Part shown: positions 5,885 to 59,830 of the stretch, piece after piece
Numbering within the stretch: the first letter of the stretch is position 1
Layout: the number at the start of each line of letters is the position of its first letter
Origin: Ulota crispa
Lineage: Eukaryota; Streptophyta; Bryopsida; Orthotrichales; Orthotrichaceae
DNA: 64,000 nucleotides
Assembly (NCBI GenBank): GCA_963920765.1
Contig: OY987242.1
Span: forward strand, 16,454,002-16,518,001
Direction of reading: 5' to 3'
Position numbers and translations under genes: made by a program
The notes under the pieces: model-generated
Database searches by the model: none
What the model was told of the DNA's origin: nothing
The model's input: the letters and a program-made list of their open reading frames with translations, nothing else

Positions 5885-5966
5885 TCGATGTGACTCCCAT
5901 TAGAGATCATTTGACTTTTGAGTTCTTGGCTTTTGAGTTCTAATAAGAGTGAGGCGGTAGCTAGCT

Positions 5967-8900
5967 ATGGGGGTGACAAGCACGACCACAAACGAGGATC
6001 GCCATCAAAGGGGCGACGATGCGGTGGCGGTCCCGTTGTACACAATGCAAGCATTGTGGGACGGGAGGATGTCGTTGAAGGACTTCGAGGTTGCCGAGAC
6101 CGACAAGGTCGATGTGCCGCACAACGTCTTCGAGCAAGAGGAAGCTCTTCCGGTGATCGACGTCGGGGCGTTGCACGGATGTGATAAGGACGCTCGCGAC
6201 GCTAATCTGGCGCTCATGTTGGACGCGGCGAAGACGTGGGGGTTCTTCAAGATTCGAAACCACGGCATCGCCTTAGACGTGGTACGCACTCTCACTCACA
6301 TACACTCTCCATCAATTGCGTCGTAGCGTCGTAGCTTGCACATATTTCTTTCCAACTATTGCCAATCTCGTAGCGTCTCAAATCGTCACGCATAACAATA
6401 TTGCCGATCTTGTAGCTTGCACATATATGCGTCTCAAATTGTCGCCTATCTCGTAGCTTGCACATATTTCTTTCCAACTATCTCTAATTCGTAGCGCCTC
6501 AAATTGTCACGCAGAACAATTTTGCCGATCTCGTAGCTTGCACAAATTTCTTTCCAACTATTGCCGATCTTGTAGTTTGCACTTATTTCTTTCCAACTTT
6601 GTACCGAAATACATCTTAAATACTCCCTCTGTCCCAATATAAAGTTCCAAATTAGGCATAGTTCTTGTCCCACTAATGAGCTCCCTATTGCTAATTTTAA
6701 TTGTTGAGAAAGCATTTGTCATATTCAATGATATCATGGGGGTAAGTTAAGCAATTAGAGAGCATTCCTCTCCTAAAAAGCTTGGCCTTGCTCATATGAG
6801 GTACCATTGTTGCTACTAATCTTTTAAATCATCAATAATGAGGAGCTAGCAACATGTACAAGTATGGTACTTTTTGCATGAACTTTGGATGCCCAAATGG
6901 CAACAACGAAATTTGAAATTTTCCACACATTTGGTCGATGATATGTTGACTCTAGAACACATGTGTCACTAGTACAAAAACTAAAATAATGAGGGGTTAA
7001 CAGTATTCACAAACTATGCACAAACATGGTACTTTTTGCATGGAATTTGGGTGCTTAAACCACAACATAAAAACTGGAGATTTTGCAAACATTTGATAGG
7101 TGGTATATTGATTCTAGAATGCATCTGTCACTAGCATAATGACTAAAAATACAATTAATCCCTCATGAAGAAGTTTTTTGGAGCTTTATAATGGGACAGA
7201 GGGAGTGAAAATACAATTAATCCCTCATGGAGAAGTTTTTTGGAGCTTTATAATGGGACAGAGGGAGTGAATTGTAGCTTGAAAACTAAACTAATTTAAC
7301 AAACACGCCTTATAATTGAAATTTTAGCATATCTTTTGTGGCGATTTTATTGTGTGGCAGGTGAAGAAAGCAGAACGGAATGTGAAGAAGTTCTTCGAGT
7401 TGCCCATGGAGAAGAAACTGATGGTGAAAGCGTCTAATTTCGCCTTTGGCTACGTCGGAGGATCGCCTGTTAGCTGGCGGTACCGATGGTGGATGGAAGG
7501 CCTGCAGATAAAAGTGAGAGCTCCCTAAACCCTAATCCCCTTAGAGCATCACCACCCTTTCTTACAAAATGCAAGCTGATTTGCAAGCCTGTCAATTCAG
7601 TTTGCAAGCCAGGGAAGAAGGGTTGCCCTACCCACAATCTCTTTAGAGGTCATTTCCACCCAATCAGCTTTGTCCACATTCAAGTCCTTATTTGTTGAAA
7701 AAGTGTAAAAGATGTTTGTCTCATGTGATTTGCAAGTTGGTTTGCAAATTACCCTTTGGCTTGCAATAGAGCTTGGTTTTGCAAGCCACTGGAAGCTTTT
7801 GGCTTGGCCTCTTAACAAGTTTGCAAGCCGGTGGCAACAAGCCAGTAGAGGATGGGTGGCGATGCTCTGCTGCTCATCCCTGAGAAAACCTGTGCTTTTG
7901 AATCCCCTTTCTCTATGACGATAAAACATTTCCTGAAACTTACTGTCTTAAGATATGCTCTGATCCTGCTGTTGCAGGTGCACGAGGAGGCCATTCGCAA
8001 CATGGTGACGCTCGTCTGGTCCGAGGATCCCGAGTTTGCTCAGGAATTCATGTAAGCAAGCAAGTGACCATGGAAGACTCTCTTCTGCTTATTTACTTTT
8101 GCTACTCCCTCTGTCCCTCTAAAACGTCCAAATCAAACATATATTTCTTGTACCACTAAAAAGCTCCCTTTTGCTAAGTTCAAACGTTAAGAAAGCATTT
8201 GCCATGTTCAATGATCTCATGGGGGCAAGTTAAGCGATTAGAGAGCATTCCATTCCTCTCCTACCAAGCTTGGCTTTGCCCATATGAGGTACCATTGATG
8301 CTACTAATCTTTAAATCATTAATAATAAGGAGTTGGCAAAATGTACAAATATGATACTTTTGGCATGGAATTTTGGATGTTGAGCCGGTAACATCAAAGC
8401 TAGAGATTTTGCATACATTTTGTAGATGGTATATTAATTCTAGAATGCATGTATCACTAGTACAAAAACTTAAAAACACAGATAGTCCTTTGCAAGGAAT
8501 CTTTTTGGACGTTTTTAGAGGGATAAGAGGGAGTAATTTTTTTTGCTTTTTTTAGCTGTTGTCTGAAGTTTTGTTGTAAGGAATGCGAGTGCAGCGCTAG
8601 TCCTTTGCAAGGAATCTTTTTGGACGTTTTTAGAGGGATAGGAAGGAGTTTTTTTTTTTTTTTTTTTTTTTCCTTTAAGCTGTTTTCTGAAGTTTGGTTG
8701 TAAGGATTGTGAGTGCAGCGCTAGTCCTTTGCAAGGAATCTTTTTGAACGATTTTAGAGGGATAAGAGGGAGTATTTTTTTATATTTTTCTTTAAGCTGT
8801 TTTCTGAGTTTTGGTTGTAAGGATTGTGAGTGCAGCGCTAGTCCTTTGCAAGGAAGCTTTCTGGACGTTTTTAGAGGGATAGAGGGAGTAATTTTTTTTT

Positions 8901-11138
8901 GCTATTTTTTAGCTGTTTTCTGAGTTTTAGTTGTAAGGAATGCGAGTGCAGTGCTAGTCCTCTGCAAGGAATCTTTTTGGACATTTTAGAGGGATAGAGG
9001 GAGTATTTTTGTTGCTTTTTTTAAGTTGTTATCTGAATTTTGGGTTGTAAGGAATGTGAGTGCAGCGCGGATTTGACGAGCTACTTCAGCACAATGCGGG
9101 AGCTGTCGCGGCTGATGGTTGAGTGCCTGAGCGAGGCCCTGGGGCTGATTCCGGACACGTTCACCAAGCTGGAGACGCCCAACGCCACCTGTAATGCGCG
9201 CGTGAATCACTACCCGCCATGCCCGGATCCGTCCAAGGTGTTCGGCATCCCGGCGCACTCCGACCCGCAGATGCTGTCCATTCTCTACCAAGACGACGTC
9301 GGTGGCTTGCAGGTACACAATCTGGGGAGTTTTTTTAGCTTAATCGGCCAACATCCTACATTCTCTTGAGCCAACCGGTTGTCTAGAGTTTACTCCTGGC
9401 TAAGCCTATAGAAATAAAGAATATTTTCCTTTTTTCCTCTTAAAGGGTCGGTTTCTTTCCTAAACTTTTAAATACAATTTGGCAATTCTCAAAAATCAAC
9501 CGGCTAGCTTGTAATTGAACTTTGGCACTCTCCGTACGCTGGCAGGTACTCAAGGGCGACCGGTGGATCGGCATCCGCCCCGACGACTCCACCTTCGTTT
9601 GCAACCTTGGCGACACTTTCCAGGTCCACCTCCCAACCTCTAAACCCTAAACCCTGAAACCTTCAAAACCTCTAAACCCTCAGAGTCTCTCTATCCCCTC
9701 ACCTGTATTGCAAACACCAGTGTCTGTAAAGTGTGGGTTAAGGGCCTCAAGGAACAAGGGCAGAGCCCCAATGTGCAATGCTACAAATGTGAGATTGCTT
9801 GTGCATAAGGTCCTTAACTTGTGTAAATGAAGCTTGAACAAAATATTGTCATGTATTTTCTATGTTGTCAGGAATGATGTTTGTTACTCAACGTGACATC
9901 ACTAAGCATTTTTTGTTGTTATGTTCACAAGTTTAAGGGCAATAAAAATGCAAAGGATTTTGTTCAAACAACGTTTACATTCAAAGTGTAGGACACTTCA
10001 ATCTAAGCATTAGACTTGACTAGGTCTTGAGCCTCATTACAAAATAAAAATTAGAACACTTTAATCTGGGCTCTAGGTTTTGCTAGGTTCTGGGTGTCTT
10101 TGTAAACTATACAATCTAAGGTCTAGGTTTCATGAAGGCCTCTTTAATTATGGGAGGATTTCCTTGTAGATTTTAGTGTAAAATCTCCCAAACCCAAGGG
10201 TACAATAATCCTTACAAGACTATGGCATTGGTGTTCACAAATCAGCTGCACATGAAGAAGGTTGGTACTAAATGTCCACAAATCAATTAGAGATAATATT
10301 AGCGTCCGGGCCTATTTCTAAGTTGCCCCAATTTACAATCTAGTGGATCATGAATTGAGTCCAAGCTTTGTTTGAGTCCTAATATAAAAACTATTAGGTC
10401 CAATTGATGCCCCAATTTCAAACCAACAAATTGGGCCCATGTTCCTAAAGTTGGGTCAATGCATTGTGTCGACCCATTTTTTCTTGGCTTGGGCCCAACC
10501 TTTGGTGCCACTTATTTGGGCACGTCAGTGACCGTGTCATCAACAGGACCAATTGAGTCACTTTTTAACATAAAAATTTAGGGGGTGCAATTGATGTCTT
10601 AATTTTAAAATTTCGAGCAATTCCAAAATGGTTCATTGTTATAGTTCTTGAATTGGACCAACTAGTGGCCCTCACGTTCACCTTCTTATCTTAAGCTTGT
10701 CTTCTTCCCAAATTCTAGAGTACACTTGAGCTTGCGCACCAAGGCTTTTGCAACTTTTGCCTGAAGAATGAGATGCATTATTGAAATGTGTTGGTTTTTG
10801 AAGGGTTTTTGTGAAGTGAGTTTGTTTATGTTGGGATGTTTGTGAAATGTGTTTGGTTTTTGAGGAGTATTGTTTTTGGGGTGCAGGCAGTGACAAACGG
10901 TATACTGCACAGTGCAGCTCACCGAGTGGCGTTGAACACTACCAGGCCTCGGTACGCTACCATCTACTTCTACGGCATCGACAACACAATACCGCTGGAG
11001 GTGCCACCACAATTGGTGACGGAGGAGCGGCCCTTGAAGTACCGGCCTTTTACTGTGAATGAGTACCGGGCGCACTACTTGACGCAGGAAGTGCCCATGG
11101 ATGGTTTGAAGTTCCTAGAATTGCCGCCCCAAAAATGA
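5967..11138 (+). CDS. 2-oxoglutarate/Fe(II) dioxygenase, gibberellin-oxidase-like
   Basis: Six exons join in phase: 5967-6281, 7361-7513, 7978-8051, 9066-9312, 9546-9623 and 10887-11138, giving 372 aa, the usual length for plant soluble dioxygenases of the DOXC class. An N-terminal DIOX_N-type domain (LPVIDVGAL, WGFFKIRNHGI) is followed by the double-stranded beta-helix core. The iron ligands are H245, D247 (HSD) and H301. VNHYPPCPDP precedes the core, as in gibberellin oxidases, and R311 is the expected 2-oxoglutarate-binding arginine. The usual RxS motif reads R-Y-A, and HxD uses serine instead of threonine. The enzyme should hydroxylate or desaturate a small molecule in the cytosol with oxygen and 2-oxoglutarate. 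Substrate is unknown; gibberellin 2- or 20-oxidase relatives fit best (SWRYRWWMEG aligns with their SWSEAFHI region). All introns are GT-AG. Introns 1 to 3 are full of MITEs and tandem repeats. Confidence 0.88.
6322..6605. repeat. complex tandem repeat in dioxygenase intron 1
   Basis: Four to five scrambled copies of a unit built from TCGTAGCTTGCACATATTTC, TTTCCAACTATTGCC and GCGTCTCAAATTGTCACGCA blocks. It starts about 40 bp after the 5' splice site. No function is apparent. Confidence 0.7.
6621..7269. mobile_element. Stowaway-like MITE, family W, in dioxygenase intron 1
   Basis: The left end is TA then CTCCCTCTGTCCC and the right end is its complement GGGACAGAGGGAG, as known for Stowaway elements with TA targets. 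The last ~62 bp of the right end is tandemly duplicated (7145-7205 and 7207-7268). The interior matches a second copy in intron 3 (8103-8535). Confidence 0.85.
7543..7868. mobile_element. MITE R in dioxygenase intron 2
   Basis: Inverted ends AGAGCATCACCACCC and GGGTGGCGATGCTCT enclose 326 bp that is rich in TTGCAAGCC motifs in both orientations. The terminus resembles the common plant AGAGCATC-type MITE end. No target duplication is clear. It fills most of intron 2. Confidence 0.7.
8103..8535. mobile_element. Stowaway-like MITE, family W, in dioxygenase intron 3
   Basis: Starts TA CTCCCTCTGTCCC and ends GGGATAAGAGGGAG TA. The interior follows the copy at 6621 through the ATGAGGTACCATTG and AGAAAGCATTTG blocks. 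Its right terminus is the start of the tandem array that runs to the exon 4 acceptor. Confidence 0.85.
8484..9065. repeat. five-copy tandem array ending at the exon 4 splice acceptor
   Basis: Units begin AGTCCTTTGCAAGGAATCTT at 8484, 8599, 8723, 8840 and 8956 (period 115-124 bp). Each unit joins the right end of the family W MITE to the 3' end of the intron, including the sequence GTGAGTGCAG that is the real acceptor at 9065. Four upstream copies of that acceptor therefore exist near 8595, 8719, 8835 and 8951. Confidence 0.9.
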
Positions 11139-20800: not shown

Positions 20801-23703
20801 GCACGCTGCACGACACTTTCTACTACTTGGTGTCGGTTTCTAGTGCGCTGTAGAAAACCGAGGTTTTTGGCATCCTCTCGCTATTACCACATGTTCTCAG
20901 TGTAGGATGTTACATTCACTGCAGGTGAGAGAACGTTTGGTGTTCTCACGAAGCTGGACCTAATGGACAAGGGTACAAATGCTAGCGACGTGAGTATATC
21001 TTTTTCTTGAGATAGGCTGCCTACTTGTACATATTTGATAGAGCTCAGTGAGGGGAGTGTGTGTCAATTGGATTAATAGCGGTTAGGGTGTGACGATTAT
21101 ATCTGGGAGTTTGTTGGGCTAAAGTTGCTATGTTGTTTGGGGTACAGGTGTTAGAAGGGCGTTCTTACAGATTGGTGCAACCATGGGTAGGAGTTGTGAA
21201 TCGCTCTCAGCAGGACATCAACAAGAACGTGGACATGATTGCTGCAAGGCGACGAGAACGGGAATACTTTCAGTCAAGTCAGGATTACGGTCATCTTCAG
21301 AGCAAGATGGGATCGGAATATCTGGGCAGGGTTCTTTCTAAGGTTTGACTATGGGTTCTTGACCTTGTGATGATTGACACTTCAAGTGGACGCGAGTGGT
21401 TCCGTGATGTTCGGTGCTCATGTTTATGGAGGTTTTTTTGTTTAATTAATACTGTATCTTTGTTTGCAATGTATTTGGGCTCTGGTATCGTGGTACGATT
21501 GTTTCATTTTTTCGGTTTTGGTGAAATATTTGGTGCAGCACTTGGAGACTGTGATCAGGTCACGCATTCCTAGCATACTTGCTATGATCAATAAGACAAT
21601 TGATGACATCGAGACAGAGTTGAACCAGATTGGAAGGCCCTTGGCAAATGATGCGGGGGTGAGTAGTAGTTTCTACTTGGGCATATTTTAATTTCTACTT
21701 TCTGTTGTTTCAGATTTAGGTAGATTTTTGAAGGTATCGAACTTCTTTAGTCTGGTTTAGAGCGCAAACTGCACACTTGTTGGGTTATTTTACATTTTAT
21801 GTGTAATTCTCCTTGCATTGTGCTGATTGCATGATGACGTACTGGCCAGGCTCAACTGTACACCATTCTGGAGCTTTGCAGATCCTTCGATCGCATCTTC
21901 AAGGAGCACTTGGATGGATCGTAAGTTCTTTCATTCATGATAGATTGGTTTTGTAAGGGCTTTAGGGAACGCACATGTTCCTGTTCACTCCTGTTTTTGC
22001 AATATGCAATCTTCCTCTTTACCCGCACATGTCGTTCATATTGGAGGACGCAATGAATTTACAAAGCTATGCCTTTTTTTCCAGGCGACCCGGTGGAGAG
22101 AAGATTTACTCGGTGTTCGATAACCAGTTGCCAGCCGCATTGAAGAAGCTCCCATTTGAGAAGCACCTGTCGATGCAGAACGTGCGGAAGATCGTGTCAG
22201 AGGCTGATGGATACCAGCCACATCTGATTGCACCCGAACAAGGTTACAGGCGGTTGATCGAGAGCTCTCTTGTTCTGTTCCGAGGACCCGCTGAAGCAGT
22301 CGTAGATGCGGTGGGTGCTTGCAGCATTTCTGATGCTTGATGGAATGGTTCGAAGATTTCTGAATGGTTTTCTGACGTGTGTGCTAGTGAATTTAGTCCT
22401 TTATTTGGAGTGGTTGTAACTTGGTATTATTGCGACACTGATATTGAGAGTTTTGAATGTGCAGACTCATTTCATTTTGAGGGATCTTGTACGAAGGTCG
22501 ATTGGCGAGTGCACAGTAAGCACGAATTGACATTTTTTGGTGTCGCTTACATTGTTGTCGGACTAGTTGTAGACTTTTGAGACGTGTACATGCTTGAAAT
22601 TTCTCATTTTTGTTTGCTGAAATGGGTTATAAATGAAATTCTTGCTTATTAAGCGTTAGGGTGCAAATCTATGTTGTGGGCGAGGACTTGATGAAGTTAG
22701 TTGTAGTGACGGTCATGCAGTCCTTTGGTACTTGGAATTGATGTATTCATGTGGATTTCGGCAGGAGTTGAAACGGTTTCCGAGCCTTCAAGCCGAGCTG
22801 GCTCAAGCAGCTACCGAGGCTCTAGAGAAGATGAGAGATGATAGCAAGAAGACCGCTTTGAGGTTGGTGGATATGGAGGCGAGTTATTTGACGGTAGATT
22901 TTTTCCGAAAACTTCCTCAAGAGATAGAGAAAGGAGGAAACCCATCTGCATCAACAATGGACCGTTACACCGATGGCCACTTGCGACGAATTGGTGAGCT
23001 CCGATGGTTTTGCCTCAAGCGGGAGTAGTGACTGGTGTTGGTATAATGCTCAGACTGGTTTTTTGTGTATGTTTAGAAGATGGAGACTTTGAACATTTCT
23101 TGGTTTCAGCAGACTTTGCCATCTTCCAGTAGAGAATCGTAGGCAAAGGGTGCTTGGTTGTTGGATGTAGATTTGGAGCTTTTCGTAATGGTTTGTTTAA
23201 TCTAAACATGACATCATGGGGATGGTGTTGACAAACGTCACAGGGTCAAACGTATCTGCATATATTGGCATGGTGTGCGATTTGCTAAGGAACTCTCTGC
23301 CGAAAGCAGCAGTGCACTGTCAAGTTCGGGAGGCGAAGCGGTCCCTGCTGGACTATTTCTATACACAAATCGGCAAGCGAGAGGTGAATGTGGTTCTTGT
23401 GTGAGGCTTCGTTTGTTTGCCAAATAATGGTGCACTTTTTATGATGTGCATTCTTTTGTGATCGTGGGCTTTTCTATGACCATTGTATTTTGCCCTTTTT
23501 TACTCCTGCAATGTGCACAGCTCGGATCATGTTGTGGGAAAGCCTCTGATTCAGGATCGGGGTTTGCTATACAGGGAAAGCAATTGGCAACCATGTTGAA
23601 CGAGGACCCTGCATTGATGGAACGCAGAGTTCAGCTGTCAAAGAGGCTGGAGCTGTTCAAACAAGCCCGGGATGAGATCGACGCTGTGGCATGGGCAAAG
23701 TAA
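17835..23703 (+). CDS. DRP1: dynamin-related GTPase, DRP1 type
   Basis: Sixteen exons join in phase to give 628 aa: 17835-17966, 19162-19225, 19487-19591, 19787-19888, 20112-20162, 20384-20445, 20590-20680, 20925-20989, 21148-21342, 21539-21658, 21850-21920, 22085-22310, 22465-22515, 22765-22993, 23244-23383, 23521-23703. The GTPase domain has the P-loop GGQSSGKS (42-49, lysine 48), switch II DLPG (142-145), TKLD (211-214) and NRSQ (242-245). A middle domain and a C-terminal GTPase effector domain follow. There is no PH domain and no proline-rich tail, which with the length identifies plant DRP1. Family members assemble on the cell plate and plasma membrane and act in cytokinesis and clathrin-mediated endocytosis. 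All motifs are intact and no stop or frameshift is seen. The first intron (about 1.2 kb) contains a family C MITE. Confidence 0.96.
18059..18492. mobile_element. TA-target MITE, family C, in DRP1 intron 1
   Basis: A 434 bp element with ends AGGTAGAAGCACCCAA and TTGGGTGCTTCTACCT, bordered by TA. It aligns well with the copy at 57612-58031, including the shared GTCCACAATA and CAACAATTCATAATTTATTC blocks. Confidence 0.9.
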
Positions 23704-47900: not shown

Positions 47901-50900
47901 CGACAAGGTAGTTACGTACTTGCAAATTGTTTTAATGAATGTAGCCTTAACGTTATTGCCTAATCCATAATGCCAATGCAAATGGCATCTTAAACGTCCG
48001 ACTGAAAATTTGATCCTTCCAAGAACTATTTTTGAAACACAATCTGTAATCCAACAACAGGATATTGAAGATTGTATTACATTTGTCTGCCCCTAAGAAA
48101 ATCAAAATATGCTACAAGACCATAACAATCATAAATATAGGCTTCAAAGTTCAGCGCTGTATGGATACGTTTCTGTACATGATCTCTTTGGTTCCATAAC
48201 TTCTAGATCAAATTATAAATGCAATTAAGAAGAGTTAGCATTAAGAACCTCTAACTCCCGTATCAAAAACATTGACAAAAGCTTCAAAATCATGCATGGC
48301 AATTATGGTGAAGACTCTGTACCACTTTGGAAGTAGAGGCCAGAGACAAGTTGTGCGCGATCAATGGATCCAGGTTATCACATGCGTCATTTGCCCACAC
48401 AAAATCTGCTTCAGAATGGGCTAAGTAGCGAGCAGCTCGAATCCCAGAGCCACTCAGAGCATCCAACACATGGAGCCGGCCTTTCTCTTTCTTGTACACC
48501 GCAGCTGCCAAACAGCCTAAATCTCGTCCAACAGCACTTTCCTCCCGGTAGAACGAGGATCCCACCAGAAATTGGACCCCACGCTCACTTCTCATGTTCT
48601 CTGTTTCCGGCACATGCTCGGGTTGCTCTGCCACCATGCATAATCAGACAAAAAGGGTGTGAGATGGACAAAAAAAATGGAGAACTAAACTACCGAAGAA
48701 TTGATCCACTTTTGAAGCAATCAGCTCCAAATTTTAGACATGCAGAGACGGTCAAATGAACCCGGAAAACTAAGGAATGGAAAAAGAAAGTGAATAATTA
48801 TAACGTGAATCCTCTGCAAAAATTACATAATCAGAAAAAAAATCTAGATTTCTGTCCTGCTCTTCGTTCTTTGATTCGAAAGGTGTTCACCCAGGTATAT
48901 ATCCTTACGAATGATATGAAACCTCAAGCTCACGAGATTCAAACATAAATACCGTAGAATCCAAAAGATTTAATAGGAAATGTACTGCTCACTATTCGCA
49001 AGGCTGATCAGGAGACATGCAAGCTGGCGAACCTAGCAGTGGGCGTCAAACCTGGCATATTTGAAGGTTTCCGGATAACTCTGTCCAGATTTTTTTGTAA
49101 AGTTACGGGGTGGTGACTGAACCAAATTCTCCAAAGTTATCCCCCTTTCAAAGCTTCACAAACTACATGATAAAAATTTGAGTAAATCTTCATAACTTAC
49201 TTATGGGATAATGTCACAAAGATTGATGTGTGAGGAGGGTGTGACATTAAAGAGAGAGGGTGTGATATCAAAGAGGGAGGGTGTCATATTAAAGAGGTTA
49301 GGGTGTGATATTACAGAGGTAATTTAGATTTTTGTAGTATGATTAGTAATAACAATAACATCTTTAATGTCACAATCTCCCTCTTTAATATCACACCCTC
49401 CCTATTTAGTATCACACTCTCCCTCTTTAGTATCACAGTCTCCCTCTAGAAGAGAGCTACAAGATCACTTGATAACTTTTATAAAGAGAGGCCATAACTA
49501 GTTTAAGTTTCAATCACCTCTAGAGGTGGGTGATGAAGTTATCATGCCTTACAACTTCAAAAAGTGGTTGAGTTGTGGGGAGGACCCAGCCAAACTTGTC
49601 AGGTGGGAAATAGCCAGGCTTGACACCCACTAGTGGTACTGCAAGACTTATCATGATTAAAATAATCAAACAAAATTGACTGGCCTTAAACCCTAAACCC
49701 TCAATCCTAAAATTGCAGCGGATTGTATTCTATCATGATTAGGAAATATTTCCCTCCAACTAAACATACTCACAAGATTGCCAGTGTCCCGCACCGACAG
49801 CCTAAAGGTCATGGAACTCAAACGACTCGGCCATAGAATCCAAAAGTTTTATCATAAATTTGCTGCTCACCATTCTTAAAACTGATTATGACACTTACAA
49901 ACTACGAAACCAGTCGTACTGGAAAACCAATGACATTGTCAATACTAATAACAACCCCACCATGGTTCCAGCATCCTAAACCCTAAAAATGGATGGAATT
50001 GCATTTTAAAGCGACTATGAAGTAATTAGACCCAACTAAACATACCTATCGAACTGCCAATGCTGTAACTCTGAAATTGCACAAGAAATTTGAACAGCCA
50101 TCACCAAACACTAATGACACTCCACCACAGCTCTAGACCGAAAACCCTAAACCCTAAAATTGCAGTGAATTGCATTCTAATGAGATTAGGAAGTACATGA
50201 CATACCTGTAAGACTGTCGATGTCCTGTAACTCGGAAACTGCACAAGAGATTTGAGTGACACTGCGAGTGTGTCTCAATCTGAGCGAATTTGGACACGTT
50301 TGAAAGAAGAAGACGGGTACGGGCTGCCAAACGCTCACAACGAGCCGTGGCCAGGTCGTCATTGAATGTAGCGCATGTGCTTGATGCCCCTCAAATCTAT
50401 TGTCGCAAACAAGCTTACTCACGATATTGTAAGAATTGCAATGCCCCCCAGGTCATGGTTTGGAGCAATTCCTCGTAGCCGATAAGTTCCGCGTCCTGCT
50501 CGAAAGCGATAAGCACAAGAACTTCCCAATTTTGCTGTTTGTGAGCACGACCTAGTGTTCCAAGCATGAGATCCGCTGGCTTCGAATTGTGGAAATTGTT
50601 GCTGGCTATGAGAAGTGAAACTGCTGTCACCAAAAGATGTAACGCTTCCTCTTCATTGGTGGCTAAATACACGTAGCCTCTCAACGGAGGAACCTAGAAG
50701 ATTATAAAAGCCACTATGTTCTAATCATCACGATTTCATAACATTCTTGGCGAGAGTACAATTCATCCTCTAGAGGTATCTTAATGCACACGAAATTCTC
50801 CAATTTCAAGAGCAGAAGATATATTTTTGACTCGTAACAAATTTCAACAGTTTAGTCAGCATGTATGTCACCTGAATCTTGCTGAGAATTTCAGAGTCCG

Positions 50901-51165: not shown

Positions 51166-51862
51166 CTACAAACAGCCATAAATTGGGTCTCTTGAAATCA
51201 GGTCTTGGAATTTAAGGCCTGATTACCTGTTTCAATTCCTACCATCGTTATTAAATTGCAATTGCTACCGAAGACAGGTATTGGAAAGACAATATGTTGC
51301 ATATAATAACAATCTCATCCAGAGACGTAGAATGTAAATCCTGCATAGGGGATGCTCCCAGGGTTACGTATTACGTAAACTAAACCAACCCTAGCCATTC
51401 AAGTAGAAAGAAACCAATCATTCTCCATTGTTCATGGCATTTCATGCTCAAGGTCACAAACATTGTTGGCCACGGAAAATTTTCCATTCAACGAAATACT
51501 TGGGCACCTTGTTGTGCTCACATCGTGCAACTTTGAAAAGTGCAGTATTTGACTCCTATATGTATGCCTGATGCCATGCAATAGCACTAAATCAAAAGCT
51601 GTTAGTAAAGCAAAGAACGTCGTGTTCTAGAAGCGTACGAAAGGATCCTCAACATCTATGGAAATTCGTACGTGGATAAATTGTCTGTTGCAAGAGTAAA
51701 GTGTTTGAGACACCCACTCAAGGAATAGAACACTAACTGAGGAACAAAGAGAATGTCTCTTAATGCTATACAATAATTAGAAAAAACCAAGACATGTGGT
51801 CGTAGTAAGCATTAACATTGCTCCTATCCGTGTGCAAACGCAGAAATGATAAAACGCTCAAG

Positions 51863-54800
51863 TTAGAGTGATTTCCACGAGCTTAGCTTTGAATGATCCA
51901 CAACCCGCTGGTTTTTCTGGTTAACAAGAATCATGTCTTCAAATTCCGCATTCCATATCACCTGGTCGTCAAATACCGAATAATACTGCACGTGGAAGAT
52001 AGGCTGCATAGACGACCTCTCCAAACCACCCTGTCGAAAATCCACAGCTCTTTTCGGTCACTTCCATAACTGCCACGAAATTGTATTCCAGACACAACTT
52101 CTAAGCATACAATTCTACGAGCTTGGCAGGACAGAACAATTGGACATACAGCGGTAAAATACAATATATCGAGATACTGAAGACTCCAGAAATAGACCTC
52201 TGGAACAACATACATCGAAGTCTCCTCCGGGGATAAACAAATACTACTAATATTTCTGCATGGTCTACTTAAGTTAATAGACTCTACACACCAAAAGAAC
52301 AAGCACCGCATGTTTCGGAATTAAGCGAATAGGTAAGACGCACTAAGAAGATTATCTCAAGTATGCGAGGCAGAATGATTTTAAAAAATACTGATAAAAT
52401 TCCTTTAAAACTGAATTAGTATGAGTTACCTTGAAAAATGTCATCAAAATAGTAGCAAAATATTTCAATAAACAATACAAAGGAAATTTTGAATAGTACA
52501 TACTAATAATTCACTGAAATATTTATACAACTATATAGCAAAATTAGCGTGAGCATGAATTTGACTATTCAAACTACTGGAGTGTTTGAAATAAATGGCG
52601 TAGACAGTGAAAAGTTCCGCACTATTCACGTGCCACCTTGTTTCTAGGAGCAAGATCAATCAGTTGAGAAAAATAACTTGCTAAACAAAGGCTTCCCTGA
52701 TGGGTAGAGGCCATCATGCTCAATTTATACCGACAAGACTAGACTAGGTGCCCGTCGGATCCACTTACCACGCTTAAAACAAAGATGGCATCATCCAGGC
52801 GCAGCGACTGTGGAGTTTGAGAATACAGAGGACTGCTCTCATCAATAATATGGCGAACGAGCATTCCTTGGTCAAGGAGAGGTATCTGTGACCGTACCTA
52901 CTCTTAGTCAACACACATGCACGTACAAAATAGTACATTATTTTTGAACTCTTGGCAAATGCAGATGATAGAAGACGAAGATAACTTACAACCTACGCTC
53001 CTCAGTAAGTCTTACACCGCATGACTCAGCTCATATGTACATTTCATGCTGAATCTATACAGTAGACTTTGGGCCATTTCTGAAGTACTTCGAACAAAAA
53101 GCTATTTTGGTTCCAGGAGTTACTCAGCTTATGACAAGTATCTGCATCATTCTTTTTTCATAGTGACAAAGGTGAAAGTATTAAATTTAAGAACTTACCA
53201 GCTTCAAAGAATTTGAACCACGAAAGTACGAACCCTCACTAGAAAATGTGTTAAACCTGTACGTCAGATCCACCTTCACATTAACAAGCTCACATGGCTG
53301 AGGTCCAGCTAGCACGCATCTTGTTGATAGTACTCTGCACATTCACAGCCATCAAGAAGATTCATTTCACCATCGGATCAACTATTTCTTGAACGTGCGC
53401 CTCACTCAGGACAATAGTTACGGATTCACTAGAATGAATAAGAGTGAGTTTTAAGTGAGCGCACTTTTTCAAGGCTTGCCCTGTTTGACCTCTACGTTTG
53501 TTGTTGGAGCAAATAAGAGCTACATTTGAACTCCTCACAGGTTCCGAGGGCTGCAGTAGTCTTGCAAACACTGCCACGAAAATCAATGTCAGATTTCAAA
53601 ATCCCAAGTTAAGATTGAAACATTGACCTTTTATTGACTCAGCTCAATCGAGAACGACAGCTTGCCAAACGAGTGCCCGACAGTGTGATTGATCAGTATA
53701 GGAAACTAGTGGGATAATAGAGTATTATTATTACGCAGGCGATTCTATAATTCTGGATCCATGGGACATTTCGTACCTGCTGCACTCAGAAAAGCAAGAG
53801 TGAGCTGAGCGCACAAGGCATTGAGATTTGCAACCACCAAAGTGTAGGGTGAAAGGGGTGCAATGTCTGGCTGCAGGCCCGTTGAGAGGGAGAGACTGAA
53901 CATGAAAACCTGGAATAAAGTCAGCCAGGACAGCTCAAGTCCAATGGCACCATCATCAATACCTGGGAAATCAACACAGAGCCACAGATTCTTAACGAAG
54001 AGATTTATAATCACGCAACGCTCTTCAAGGCTTATGGTGAGAATAGTACAGACATGCCTTCGCTAAACCCACAGGTGCAGATCTTGCATGTTCCCATATG
54101 TTACATACATTACATAGAAAAAGTTCTAAGACAAAGCGATTCTAAATTCCAACACTACTTGGCAGTTGCAACTCGCATCCAAAAAGCCAACACCCAACCC
54201 TCCGGTATCCTGTATGACCTAAGATGAATATAAACTTTCACATATTTAATCATACTCATGAAAGTTTTTACTGTAACTACGAAAAACGTAGAGCAGGAAC
54301 TAAAACTCTCTGAAAATGAAGAAACAAAGGAGAGAGATTATCCAAAATACGAGAGAACAACTGAACACATTGACAGCCTTATGTTGAGTTTGATACCAGT
54401 AGAAGCCTTCATAAACTCCCGTACTGTGTCATCATATGCTAATCCTTGGAATTCGGGCAAGTACAAGAGAGTAAAAATTGCGCTGAGTGCCAGGGGGACA
54501 GCCGCCATTCCTAATGCAAAATCTGGGAGAGGCTTCTTCAACATAAAGAAATAAAAATCACGAAGTTTGACAAGTATCCCTTGGTCTTCTTGTAAGACTT
54601 TGTGATTCTTCAGCCCTCTCAAACCCCGGAATTCAGGACGATTAGAGGTAGCAGACTCCTCAAACTCATCTTCTGAATCTACTCCATATTTCAGAAACTC
54701 AGTCACAGAACTGGAAAACTTAGTTGCTGTTCTAGTCACGGATTCCGACACTTGAGTAGCAGTTGCGCTTATTGAGTCAACCACTTGCCCGGCAGTACTG

Positions 54801-57038
54801 GCTACTGATTCTGTAGGTAAAAAAGTACTCGAACGGACCTGCTGAACCTGCTCACTCACAAGTGCCGACACCTGCACGTATTGAAAGGTACATATAAAAT
54901 CGTTACACTAAATAACGTATTCGACGATTGAGTAAAGAACAGATAAAAGCATTTTAAGATAGAACTGCAACCAAGTGGAGATAATGACAAACTTTGATAC
55001 ACGACGTGCACAAATTGTTTGGAATGTTCTTTTAAACACATTTACAACAACTGCCACAACTTGCACTCTAAGCGCGTAGGAAGGCTACTGCAACCAACAT
55101 CCTCAAACATTTATAATTATAAAGAAAACAGTAAAAATAGTAAGCTCTTGACATCAGTTTCAAGGCTACTGGTCAACCGTTTAGTGCACACAATGTAGTC
55201 AGCGAATTGGCTGGAGATGAGCTACCTGATCAATTATAACGCCGACTTGCTCAACGACAGGTTCCGGAACAACGTCCAGAACTGGTTTTAGCACTTTCGC
55301 TTCAAGATTTTCCGATTTCTAAAACAAGGATCACATCAAGCACACCTCATCAGAAGCAAATACTTTACACACTGACATAAAACCTCGAGATATTAAAGCA
55401 ACTGGAAAAAAGAACACATTTTTGCATCACGCACCGCTTTGCCAGCTCTTCCTTGTTATCGTGGTTTTCAGATTCACCTGAGGATTTTCGGTCATCTCCT
55501 TACAGGAATCAACTTTATTATTCGCAGCCGCCTGAATTTCTACATCCGTCAGTTTTAGATCTCGCTGGTCGAACTGGGCTTCTTGATCAAAGCTTTTCGT
55601 CTTTAAAGATCCCTTAGCTCCAGGAAATTTCTTTGTTGGTCTATTCTTCAGAGCCAGTTCCGGGGCATTGGAAGTGAATGGTTGAGTAAGAGCACCCTCG
55701 TTGCTTACAACCGTCGGTTGCACATTCCCTCCATGATCGAACTTCTCTCTTCGTGCACTATCTTGAGCTGTCAGCTTGGGATTCTGTTCGATGTTGTCAA
55801 TATCCTCTAAACCTAGCAATCTCGAGAGACGAGCCCCTTCCTCAAAATCAAAAGACTTCTCTATTGATCGTTTATCTAAGAATAATTCATGCACATTCAC
55901 CGTAGCACGCTCAAGAGGTGCATCCTTCCACCCAGACTTCGCCCTACCCTGTATCGCTCGTTCAATTGGTTGGATTTTAGTCGAACGCGGACTTCTCTGT
56001 CGCTGCTGCTTGACGTCGACAAGATGGGAAGCAGCTGGAGTTTCAGAAGCAGATTCATTTAGTCGAATAGAATTTGTACGTAGATCATACGTAGCAATTC
56101 CTGCAGCGTATGCTTTTTTCTTCTTTCTTTTTATTTCCCCCATTCTTTTCCTGCCTAATGAAATATCTTGATCGTTATCTTCATTTCCACCAATTAATGC
56201 GTTCTCTCCCTGTCCTTTCTCTCCTACTCCAACATTGCCACTCTCTGCTTGAATACCATTCTCAGTGTTTGGGCTCCTTCCGTCAGATTGCCGTCGATCT
56301 ACAAAGTCCGACTCTTCTTGCAAAACGGAATCTGTACCTAGGGTATGACTGCTACCATTCTCGGCACTGGTAACACCGCGTTCGTATGTGAAACCACATT
56401 GATCGCTATCCGAACTTTTGTTGCTAATGCCTTCGACATGACTCGCCATCTGTTGCAAACTCCGGGGAATAAATTCCTGAAGTAGCATCATGTGGAGGTT
56501 AGAATTTGTATGCTAGATATATTAGTAGATGTAAAGACGAAAGAAATTTATACTTTGTATATACCTTGCTTGAATCTCTTGCATCTTCAGGATCACTTGT
56601 GGTTACAATATTCTCATGAGGCGGTGGACGAGAACGAGTCCAAGTTTTCCCGGCTTCTGAGTTCTTTAAACCCCACAATGATATGGAGGCACTAGACAAA
56701 GGAGTGGTGTGTCGATGGGTAGCTTGAACTGGAAATTGCAGCTTCACAATACTCTTCTTGATGGGCCCACACAAGGGTCGAATGCTGTAAACCACACCAC
56801 ATTCAAAAATTCCGTTTAAAAAGACTAAAAAAACTCACTAGGCAGAACTACAAGCGATTTTGAGAGAAATATATGACTCAATCAGACGCATCACGGAATT
56901 TGTGAAAAAAATTAAGGAGATGCTATGTGAATAGCATCCAGGCTCGCTTGGCTTTGCTGATAAACAAAGCAAGACATTGCTTTTAACGAAATTATAGAAT
57001 AACGCATGGAGTTAGAACATTTGCTTGAGAAGCTTACC
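51863..57038 (-). CDS. Kir-family (inward-rectifier) channel-like protein with degenerate filter
   Basis: Minus-strand coding exons: 56784-56565, 56476-55478, 55318-55226, 54871-54397, 53962-53777, 53570-53465, 53334-53199, 52897-52769, 52030-51863, about 836 residues. A further exon probably ends at 57038 (donor AAG/GTAAGC), but no in-frame ATG was found, so the start is unresolved. The first ~430 residues are polar and disordered, with a basic KRKKKK tract and a serine/arginine-rich start that could be a transit peptide. Then come an amphipathic stretch, a first membrane helix (54458-54526), a pore-like segment and second helix (exon 53962-53777), and a cytoplasmic Kir-type beta domain with VNVKVDLTYR, VRHIIDESSPLYSQTPQSL and DQVIWNAEFEDMI. 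The potassium filter TxGYG is replaced by S-T-G-L-Q-P before DIAPLSP. So the fold is Kir-like but potassium selectivity is doubtful. The donor at 53465 is the least certain border. Confidence 0.75.
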
Positions 57039-57104
57039 TTCGAGATATGATTACTCTCCGAGAAAGGATTAAAACGGTTTAATTCTTATAATTTCCGTCG
57101 ATGA

Positions 57105-57611
57105 GTCTGTTTCCGATATTTGATTTTGCCCCGAGTGCAAGTACGAATGCCGCATTTGACGACGAAAGTAATGACGGCATCATCACACCTGCTCTTTTCT
57201 ATGTCAGTTCCAAGTTTCCAGTTCATCGAACTCGCTTTGTTTCATACCTCGGCTTGATAAAACAAGATCTGCCACATGAGCTGCCATATAGATACAGTAA
57301 CTAAGAAACGCTAGAAACCAGGAAGATCACATCTCGAGTCAAAAAGAATATACAAAATATCTGGATAATACTCGCAGAAGATTTTATCCTGGTTAGCGGG
57401 TTCTCGAATTACTGCTGTCTAATACCTTTTTCATGCCTGACACTCGCACTCCCAACTGAATGTCACCTTCCGCAAAATCCTTTTTCCTACAGAACAAAAG
57501 CAAGACAACAGTGCGTGTTTCTGTTAGACACGAACTTATCTTGAGCACTCTACCAGCCTAACTACAGTATATGAAAAAGAAAGAAAGAAAAAAAGAGAAA
57601 GAAAGAGCGAC
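57105..57611. other. upstream flank of the Kir-like gene
   Basis: Contains a short ATG-initiated minus-strand frame at about 57185 that ends before the 57038 donor in another phase, so it does not supply the missing start. An AG-rich run (57570-57605) precedes the MITE. Promoter or 5' leader sequence is likely but no element is certain. Confidence 0.35.
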
Positions 57612-58539: not shown

Positions 58540-59335
58540 CCAGCACTCACAACTCCAAAACCAGTTTCCTCGCACAATAATTCACCTCAGAAAATCACTC
58601 AATCCGTGTAGACGCTCACCGCGATTGGAACACAAAATATGAAGCTGCAGAACATTTCGGTGCGAATTAGCCTCTTACAAACTCCATCATCGTCAAAATT
58701 GCCTTCCACTTCGATGCATCAAACAATGATCTCGCCTCAAATAACCAACCTTGAAAAGTTAAATAATCCGTGCAAAAGGCTCGTCATGATTGGAACAAAG
58801 GACGAAACTGCAAAACAACAAACATTTTCATGCGAATCAGCTGCATCGTCGTCAAGATTGCGAGCCACTAAAAATGCATCAACAACAATCTCACCTCACC
58901 TCACACAATTCACCTTCGAAAGGCGCATGATCCTTGCAAAGGCTCGTGGCTATTGGAACATGGCAAAACAACATTAAAAAAGTTATGCACATTACGCTAC
59001 ATCGTCGTCAAGATCGTTTGCCACTACAATGCCAGGAGTACGGATTTCCAATGAGTCGATCTTTAAGTGCATAAACTACCACAGAGTTACACAAAGAGCA
59101 AACATTTTTATGCGAATCAGCTGCATCGTCGTCAAGATTGCGTGTCACTAAAAATGCATCAAACAATAATCTCACCTCACCTCACACAATTCACCTTCGA
59201 AAGGCGCATGATCCTCGTAAAGGCTCGTGGCTATTGGAACATTGCAAAACAACATTAAAAAAGTTATGCACATTACGCTACATCGTCGTCAAGATCGTTT
59301 GCCACTACAATGTCGTAAGTACAAATTTTCAATGA
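58540..59335. repeat. diverged tandem array
   Basis: At least four units of a CATCGTCGTCAAGATTGC / AATCTCACCTCACACAATTC / AAAGGCTCGTGGCTATTGGA sequence. Two younger copies (about 58825-59040 and 59115-59330) are nearly identical with a period of about 291 bp, and older ones (about 58560 and 58700) are shorter and more diverged. Open frames in the units are short. Confidence 0.8.
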
Positions 59336-59830
59336 GTCGATCTTTTAAGTGCATTAAACTACCACAGAGTTACACAAAGAGCACGCGTGTAAATGAAATG
59401 TAGAGAACTAACCATGACTCACGCGTGCACCGGTTATAGTATAAATCGAGAAGGAGCAGTTTTTTAGTTTTGAAATGATGAGTTGAAACAGAGAAGCATC
59501 GGTTGTGTCGTCGTGGACCTGAGTAAAAGTGGCGATGGTGTAGGAGTGATCATAGAGACAGCAACACGACGAAATCATGCCAAGTATAAGGGCGCACTCT
59601 CCAATAACGCCTTGGCTATGGCGGCTATGGCGACTGTGACGGAAGCAGAGCTGCGGACACGCCGGCAGACATTGGAGATCCACGTCCTCCGTCCTTCGGC
59701 TTTCGTCCTTCGTCCTTGTCATGAACACCGAACCAGTGAAAATATTTTGGACGAAGTGGCCTTAGCCATTTTTTTCTCACCAAAAAATGGTTGAGTAGCA
59801 AGGATGGTTACCATAACATTCAGTAGCCTG
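59336..59830. other. intergenic, GC-richer block, no gene call
   Basis: Open frames of about 100 codons occur on both strands at 59408-59794, in part because of a GGCTATGGCGGCTATGGCGA and CCTTCGTCCTT repeat structure. No domain or splice pattern supports a gene. Confidence 0.35.

Follow-up and report, generated by a model that had tools for sequence, protein, structure and literature searches.

In KirBac channels the pore helix leads into T-x-G-Y-G-D-x-x-P, and few motifs in biology are as highly conserved as the K+ filter. Among the matches listed from the open-licence literature, only the bacterial NirBac proteins and TbIRK of Trypanosoma brucei were found in print as Kir relatives without this signature. 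NirBac1.1, NirBac1.2 and NirBac2.1, from Anaeromyxobacter and Gemmatimonas, combine a Kir/KirBac body with loops lacking TxGYG (TTGTD in NirBac2.1). Despite their foreign P-loops, NirBac1.1 and NirBac1.2 are stable as oligomers, whose size of about 120 kDa would fit tetramers, and flux measurements show that they discriminate little among monovalent cations (PMC4607889). TbIRK, a eukaryotic relative, also lacks the signature and carries a GGYVG filter, yet the accessible text gives it a roughly sevenfold preference for K+ over Na+ (PMC5429665).

In plant papers, as far as their available text goes, "Kir-like" denotes KCO3, a TPK derivative (PMC3694395; PMC8619664). Arabidopsis KCO3 shares that name and has two membrane helices and one pore; a review traces it to a TPK channel that lost part of its sequence (PMC3694395), and it is probably distinct from the family described below. 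The terms "Kir" and "KirBac" are absent from the available main text of an inventory of moss and lycophyte K+ transporters (PMC3410407), and no paper about a signature-free plant Kir-fold family was found among the matches listed from the open-licence literature.

The locus described here lies in a 64,000-nucleotide stretch of Ulota crispa DNA (the window), on the chromosome-sized contig C1 of a 274.8 Mb genome. Its gene resembles the NirBac proteins, as these are described in print, in having a Kir/KirBac body without TxGYG; the NirBac proteins are bacterial and have other loop sequences, whereas the window gene is known from its sequence alone. Like TbIRK, it is a eukaryotic Kir relative lacking the signature, but TbIRK matches the Pfam membrane model IRK (E=5.8e-6) and the window gene matches IRK_C, not IRK.

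The window gene and its altered filter

The gene occupies the minus strand and was predicted as nine exons (56784-51863), with 836 open codons, a stop codon at the end and GT-AG boundaries at all eight introns; no start codon was found in these predicted exons. The first three, for which no known homologue was found, encode a predicted N-terminal extension of about 440 residues that has no Pfam match. They comprise an exon at 56565-56784 that is rich in S, T, R and P by eye and could be a targeting region, a long N-terminal exon of 333 codons at 55478-56476, whose open frame had no Pfam match, and an in-frame exon at 55226-55318. Because the start codon was not found, a plastid location for the protein is only a guess. 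A stretch that is amphipathic by eye (VDSISATATQVSESVTRTATKFSSSVTE, 54781-54698, minus strand) follows the extension and precedes the slide helix.

The Kir unit consists of the last six exons (399 codons). The exon at 54397-54871 encodes an S/T/V-rich segment, the slide helix (KLRDFYFFMLKKP) and TM1, as placed by the KirBac HMM alignment. The exon at 53777-53962, bounded by a good acceptor (ccag/GTATTG) and a good donor (GCAG/gtacga), contains the end of the TM1-pore linker, the pore helix (FQVFMFSLSL), the altered filter and most of TM2. The following exon (53465-53570; donor GAAAAA/gtgcgc) completes TM2 and carries the VFARLLQPSEPVRSSNVALI linker and the start of the cytoplasmic domain, which continues through the exons at 53199-53334 (VLAGPQPCELVNVKVDLTYR) and 52769-52897 (VRSQIPLLDQGMLVRHIIDESSPLYSQTPQSL; acceptor gtag/GTACGG), the latter inside the IRK_C match. 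It ends, with the stop codon, in the last exon at 51863-52030 (DDQVIWNAEFEDMI).

Two boundaries of this model were revised. A GC-AG intron with its donor at 53480 was rejected, as comparison with the paralogues pointed to a GT donor at 53465, which leaves the junction phase unchanged and matches better, and the acceptor at 52885 was replaced by 52897. The revision raised the KirBac HMM score from 110.3 to 123.6 bits. The model with 53480/52885 was used for the first tree, dN/dS, hydropathy and the first hhalign comparison; the corrected model (53465/52897) was used for the 123.6-bit HMM score, the tree with AU tests, the Pfam and PDB searches, the regional identities and the 269-column hhalign comparison.

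The window protein is a real Kir/KirBac relative, homologous from the slide helix to the end of the cytoplasmic domain. A PDB sequence search matched it to KirBac3.1 with E=2.5e-15, the best stretch (residues 177-392) starting at the pore helix and reaching almost to the end, and its pore helix, TM2 and cytoplasmic domain align with both KirBac1.1 and KirBac3.1. The bacterial KirBac profile covers the slide helix and TM1 as well, at 15.7 bits for that stretch with the 53480/52885 model. The HMM, built from 60 bacterial KirBacs, gave the window protein 123.6 bits and its three paralogues 95.5-96.7 bits. When the four plant proteins were compared with the bacterial KirBacs by hhalign, the probability was 99.9% over 269 columns that include both membrane helices (271 columns with the 53480/52885 model). 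Two membrane helices flank a P-loop in the profile alignment, and hydropathy, computed on the 53480/52885 model, peaks at both.

Pfam gave a divided answer to the profile search proposed in the earlier note. IRK_C matched the Kir unit at E=9.4e-7 (29.1 bits against a cut-off of 22.5), whereas the IRK membrane model (PF01007) did not match the window protein at E<=10. The Kir unit had no other Pfam match at that threshold, Ion_trans_2 included; in the Pfam and PDB searches the best matches were to IRK_C and KirBac, which would speak against an origin from a tandem-pore K+ channel (TPK). The cytoplasmic landmarks that had been named for the gene (VNVKVDLTYR, DESSPLYSQTPQSL and DQVIWNAEFEDMI) are all present and in frame, and VFARLLQPSEPVRSS does follow the second helix, in the next exon (53570-53465).

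The filter reads as had been reported. The minus-strand codons at 53865-53882 spell T-G-L-Q-P-D in place of T-x-G-Y-G-D, and in the exon at 53962-53777 S-T-G-L-Q-P-D-I-A-P stands between a segment resembling a pore helix and a helix of hydrophobic residues. When T-G-L-Q-P-D-I-A-P is aligned to the KirBac T-x-G-Y-G-D-x-x-P, the threonine and the last proline coincide, as does the aspartate where KirBac has one, and V-G-Y-G of KirBac becomes G-L-Q-P. The exact register is uncertain, since another alignment opens a gap within the loop. KirBac1.1 and KirBac3.1 have TVGYG or TIGYG at this place; the window gene, with TGLQP, has neither TxG[YF]G nor the GGYVG of TbIRK. A hidden exon that restores TxGYG was not found in the minus-strand frames of 51800-57300: [TS]xG[YF]G, unsplit by introns, is absent from all three, and the single minus-strand match to [TS]xGLG there (TGGLG, at 54206) is intronic and has no pore-like surroundings. 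The earlier note's claim that the Kir architecture is kept and the K+ signature replaced is borne out by the KirBac3.1, IRK_C and hhalign matches together with TGLQP.

The bacterial filters were taken from 67 loci recovered in one scan, a non-random sample because the search pattern required the cytoplasmic motif. An open frame with the motif was obtained for 65 (L073 and L075 were dropped), and 60 of these, of 280-335 aa, made up the HMM. The filter columns of the 65 frames read SIGYG in 24, TIGYG in 17, TVGYG in 17 and TIGFG in three, with AIGYG, TVGLG and TLGFN once each and no residues there in one. The K+ signature is therefore present in 62 of 65 bacterial frames, against none of the four in the window gene and its paralogues. 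All 24 loci with SIGYG, in which serine replaces the filter threonine (L018, L022, L025 and 21 others), are recorded as cyanobacterial. Two alphaproteobacterial KirBac relatives, L072 and L079, sisters with 100/100 support, have signature-drifted filters (TVGLG and TLGFN). One scan of viral contigs gave 62 pattern matches, none of which was confirmed as a relative.

Elsewhere in the window, a 281-base unit is present in two head-to-tail copies with 94% matches (58819-59383), upstream of the Kir-fold gene. Downstream, on the same strand, lies an exon of a TRM1-type tRNA methyltransferase (48293-48643, minus strand; Pfam TRM, E=4.2e-12). On the plus strand, exons at 5961-6323 and 9037-9366 match 2OG-Fe(II) oxygenase models and those at 21966-22337 and 22660-23025 the dynamin central region, the last below the Pfam cut-off.

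A paralogous family in the same genome

A genome search with the Kir unit identified three paralogues, on contigs C10, C6 and C9; L010, L011 and L012, as they are called here, could each be assembled into an open frame. A second search, with L012 as query, returned the same four genes, a weak match to a canonical Kir and a relic on C8. Both searches scored the best candidates only, and the family size is at least four. The loops of the three paralogues are TTFGGTG, TAFGGTG and TTFGGSP, that is, T[TA]FGG[TS]. Signature loss is thus not peculiar to the window gene: four paralogues lack TxGYG, with two different replacements. Neither T[TA]FGG[TS] nor TGLQP is present in the 65 bacterial frames or in the available parts of the NirBac and TbIRK papers.

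The four genes share the two introns that flank the linker exon, in the same place and phase. IRK_C matches all four proteins at E<=0.0011, but its curated cut-off of 22.5 bits is passed only by the window gene and L010 (27.2 bits); L011 and L012 score 19.5 and 19.1 bits (E about 0.001). The Pfam IRK membrane model matches none of L010, L011 and L012. L010 and L011 are 71% identical, with a dN/dS of about 0.17. No similarity was found between the N-terminal extensions of the window protein and L012 (best E=3.9).

The canonical Kir lies on C4, a large contig, around 24313500-24314400 (L001, 967-2547, minus strand), with an SMTIGYGGDL filter in an uninterrupted frame of 526 aa. It matches both IRK and IRK_C and was the sole PF01007 match found in a whole-genome search. 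Although it belongs to the Kir family like the window gene, it keeps TIGYG and matches the signature-free family weakly (25% identity with L012, E=0.035). The relic on C8 (about 2751459-2751578; L083, 4860-4979, plus strand) corresponds to the last exon of a gene resembling L012 but is decayed and interrupted by two in-frame stops, which indicates that unconstrained copies do decay in this genome.

Together, the four genes make up a small plant family of Kir-fold proteins that lack the signature, and the filter of the window gene is the most altered among them. The label "plant", given to the gene in the earlier note, fits the genome, which contains SBP-box domains (12 exon-level matches, against none in 14 control genomes); to our knowledge, these domains are confined to green plants.

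Trees were built from the four plant proteins and 38 of the 60 bacterial KirBacs, hand-chosen for spread. The plant proteins form one group with 100/100 support, and the window gene is sister to the other three (98/93). An alternative that joins it to L012 has p=0.507, so that one or two losses of the signature are both compatible with the data. A cyanobacterial (plastid) origin is neither established nor rejected by these trees: grouping the plant four with nine of the cyanobacterial KirBacs as a constraint gave an AU p of 0.676. The constrained tree exceeded the unconstrained one by 9.2 log units, a better topology that the free search had overlooked.

Constraint on the pore and competing explanations

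The window protein agrees with each paralogue at 6-8 of 10 residues of the pore helix, 17-20 of the 30 residues of TM2 and 9 of the 15 linker residues. Identity is lower in the slide helix with TM1 (16-17 of 37), in the cytoplasmic domain (49-66 of 143) and in the loop, where 2-5 of 10 aligned positions agree. When the three TFGG genes are compared with one another, the loop is invariant at 6 of 12 positions, TM2 at 19 of 30 and the cytoplasmic domain at 55 of 143. TM2 carries a polar N-x-N and an A-Q that are common to all four family proteins. On these alignments, which come from one genome and include a pore helix of ten residues, the pore helix, TM2 and the linker appear to be the best-kept parts, with the changed filter between them; the first membrane helix does not appear clearly better kept than the cytoplasmic domain. 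Second codon positions differ between the window gene and its paralogues by 0.36-0.38 and third positions by 0.66-0.74, a pattern that points to coding constraint. With the 53480/52885 model, dS to the paralogues is saturated, and the dN/dS of the window gene is not measurable for this reason.

The best explanation, to which we give about an even chance, is that the product of the window gene belongs, as a subunit, to a plant family of Kir-fold proteins without the K+ signature and acts as a NirBac-like cation channel without K+ selectivity. A KirBac-like assembly of four subunits would surround a pore that is still lined by the loop following the pore helix and is gated by the cytoplasmic domain; heteromers with the TFGG paralogues may also form. 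On general structural knowledge, leucine and proline cannot take the backbone shape of the filter glycines that they replace. With these two residues at glycine positions of the filter, the loop would form a pore lacking the stacked carbonyl cage, and cations would pass without classical K+ selectivity, as in bacterial NirBac. A working pore is preferred over a dead one mainly because the pore helix, TM2 and the linker are the best-kept parts. Against the cation channel stand the example of TbIRK, a Kir that stays K+-selective without the signature (PMC5429665), the failure of the Pfam IRK model, and the slide helix and TM1, kept at only 16-17 of 37 positions, much like the cytoplasmic domain. 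The divergence of the window filter even from its paralogues could also reflect relaxed constraint.

The strongest competitor, unlikely but deserving serious weight, is a non-conducting subunit whose filter has degenerated because no ions flow through it, and whose Kir body is retained for assembly, to sense lipids or to exert dominant-negative control over the TFGG paralogues or over the canonical Kir. The leucine and proline at filter glycine positions would suit such a protein, as would a loop that even the paralogues share at just 2-5 of 10 aligned positions and an extension of about 440 predicted residues that could act as a scaffold or regulator. However, the pore helix and TM2, with N-x-N and A-Q in all four proteins, are more conserved than the cytoplasmic domain, which would be unexpected if the body alone mattered. 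The structural subunit that the earlier note had offered as an option is weakened by the same conservation, while keeping some likelihood.

It is improbable that the non-canonical loop still selects K+ over Na+. TbIRK provides the precedent, with its GGYVG filter, for which the available text gives K+ over Na+ as more than 7 (PMC5429665). This reading suits the paralogues better than the window gene, because T-F-G-G keeps two glycines. By contrast, TGLQP has a single glycine, which falls off the K+ filter glycine columns in the alignments, and on general structural knowledge its proline and leucine are incompatible with the backbone shape required. Sequence alone does not settle the lost or changed selectivity proposed in the earlier note: the bacterial NirBacs support it (PMC4607889), but the equally signature-free TbIRK prefers K+.

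Least probable is an artefact or a dying gene, through a mis-assembled filter, an incorrectly chosen splice site or decay into a pseudogene. No start codon was found and saturated dS leaves no dN/dS for the window gene, but 836 codons are open across nine exons with GT-AG junctions, two introns keep the place and phase seen in the three paralogues, no second copy of the window gene was found among the best-scored candidates in the genome, and the paralogues lack the signature too.

Possible implications for plant cation channels

The cation-channel reading extends to the family in a more tentative form, with the balance still tipping against it: a green-plant lineage may possess its own multi-gene family of Kir-fold channels, with T[TA]FGG[TS] and TGLQP filters, pores that are not K+-selective or are otherwise selective, and large cytoplasmic gating domains. 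Such a family would be a Kir-type branch that the available text of the moss and lycophyte inventory (PMC3410407) does not mention. Four members with two replacement loops, alongside a canonical Kir in the same genome, offer a natural series in which to ask how much change a Kir pore tolerates before it ceases to conduct. The family members are candidates for plant cation currents and, if the proposal is true, would provide a new molecular candidate for voltage-independent non-selective cation currents.
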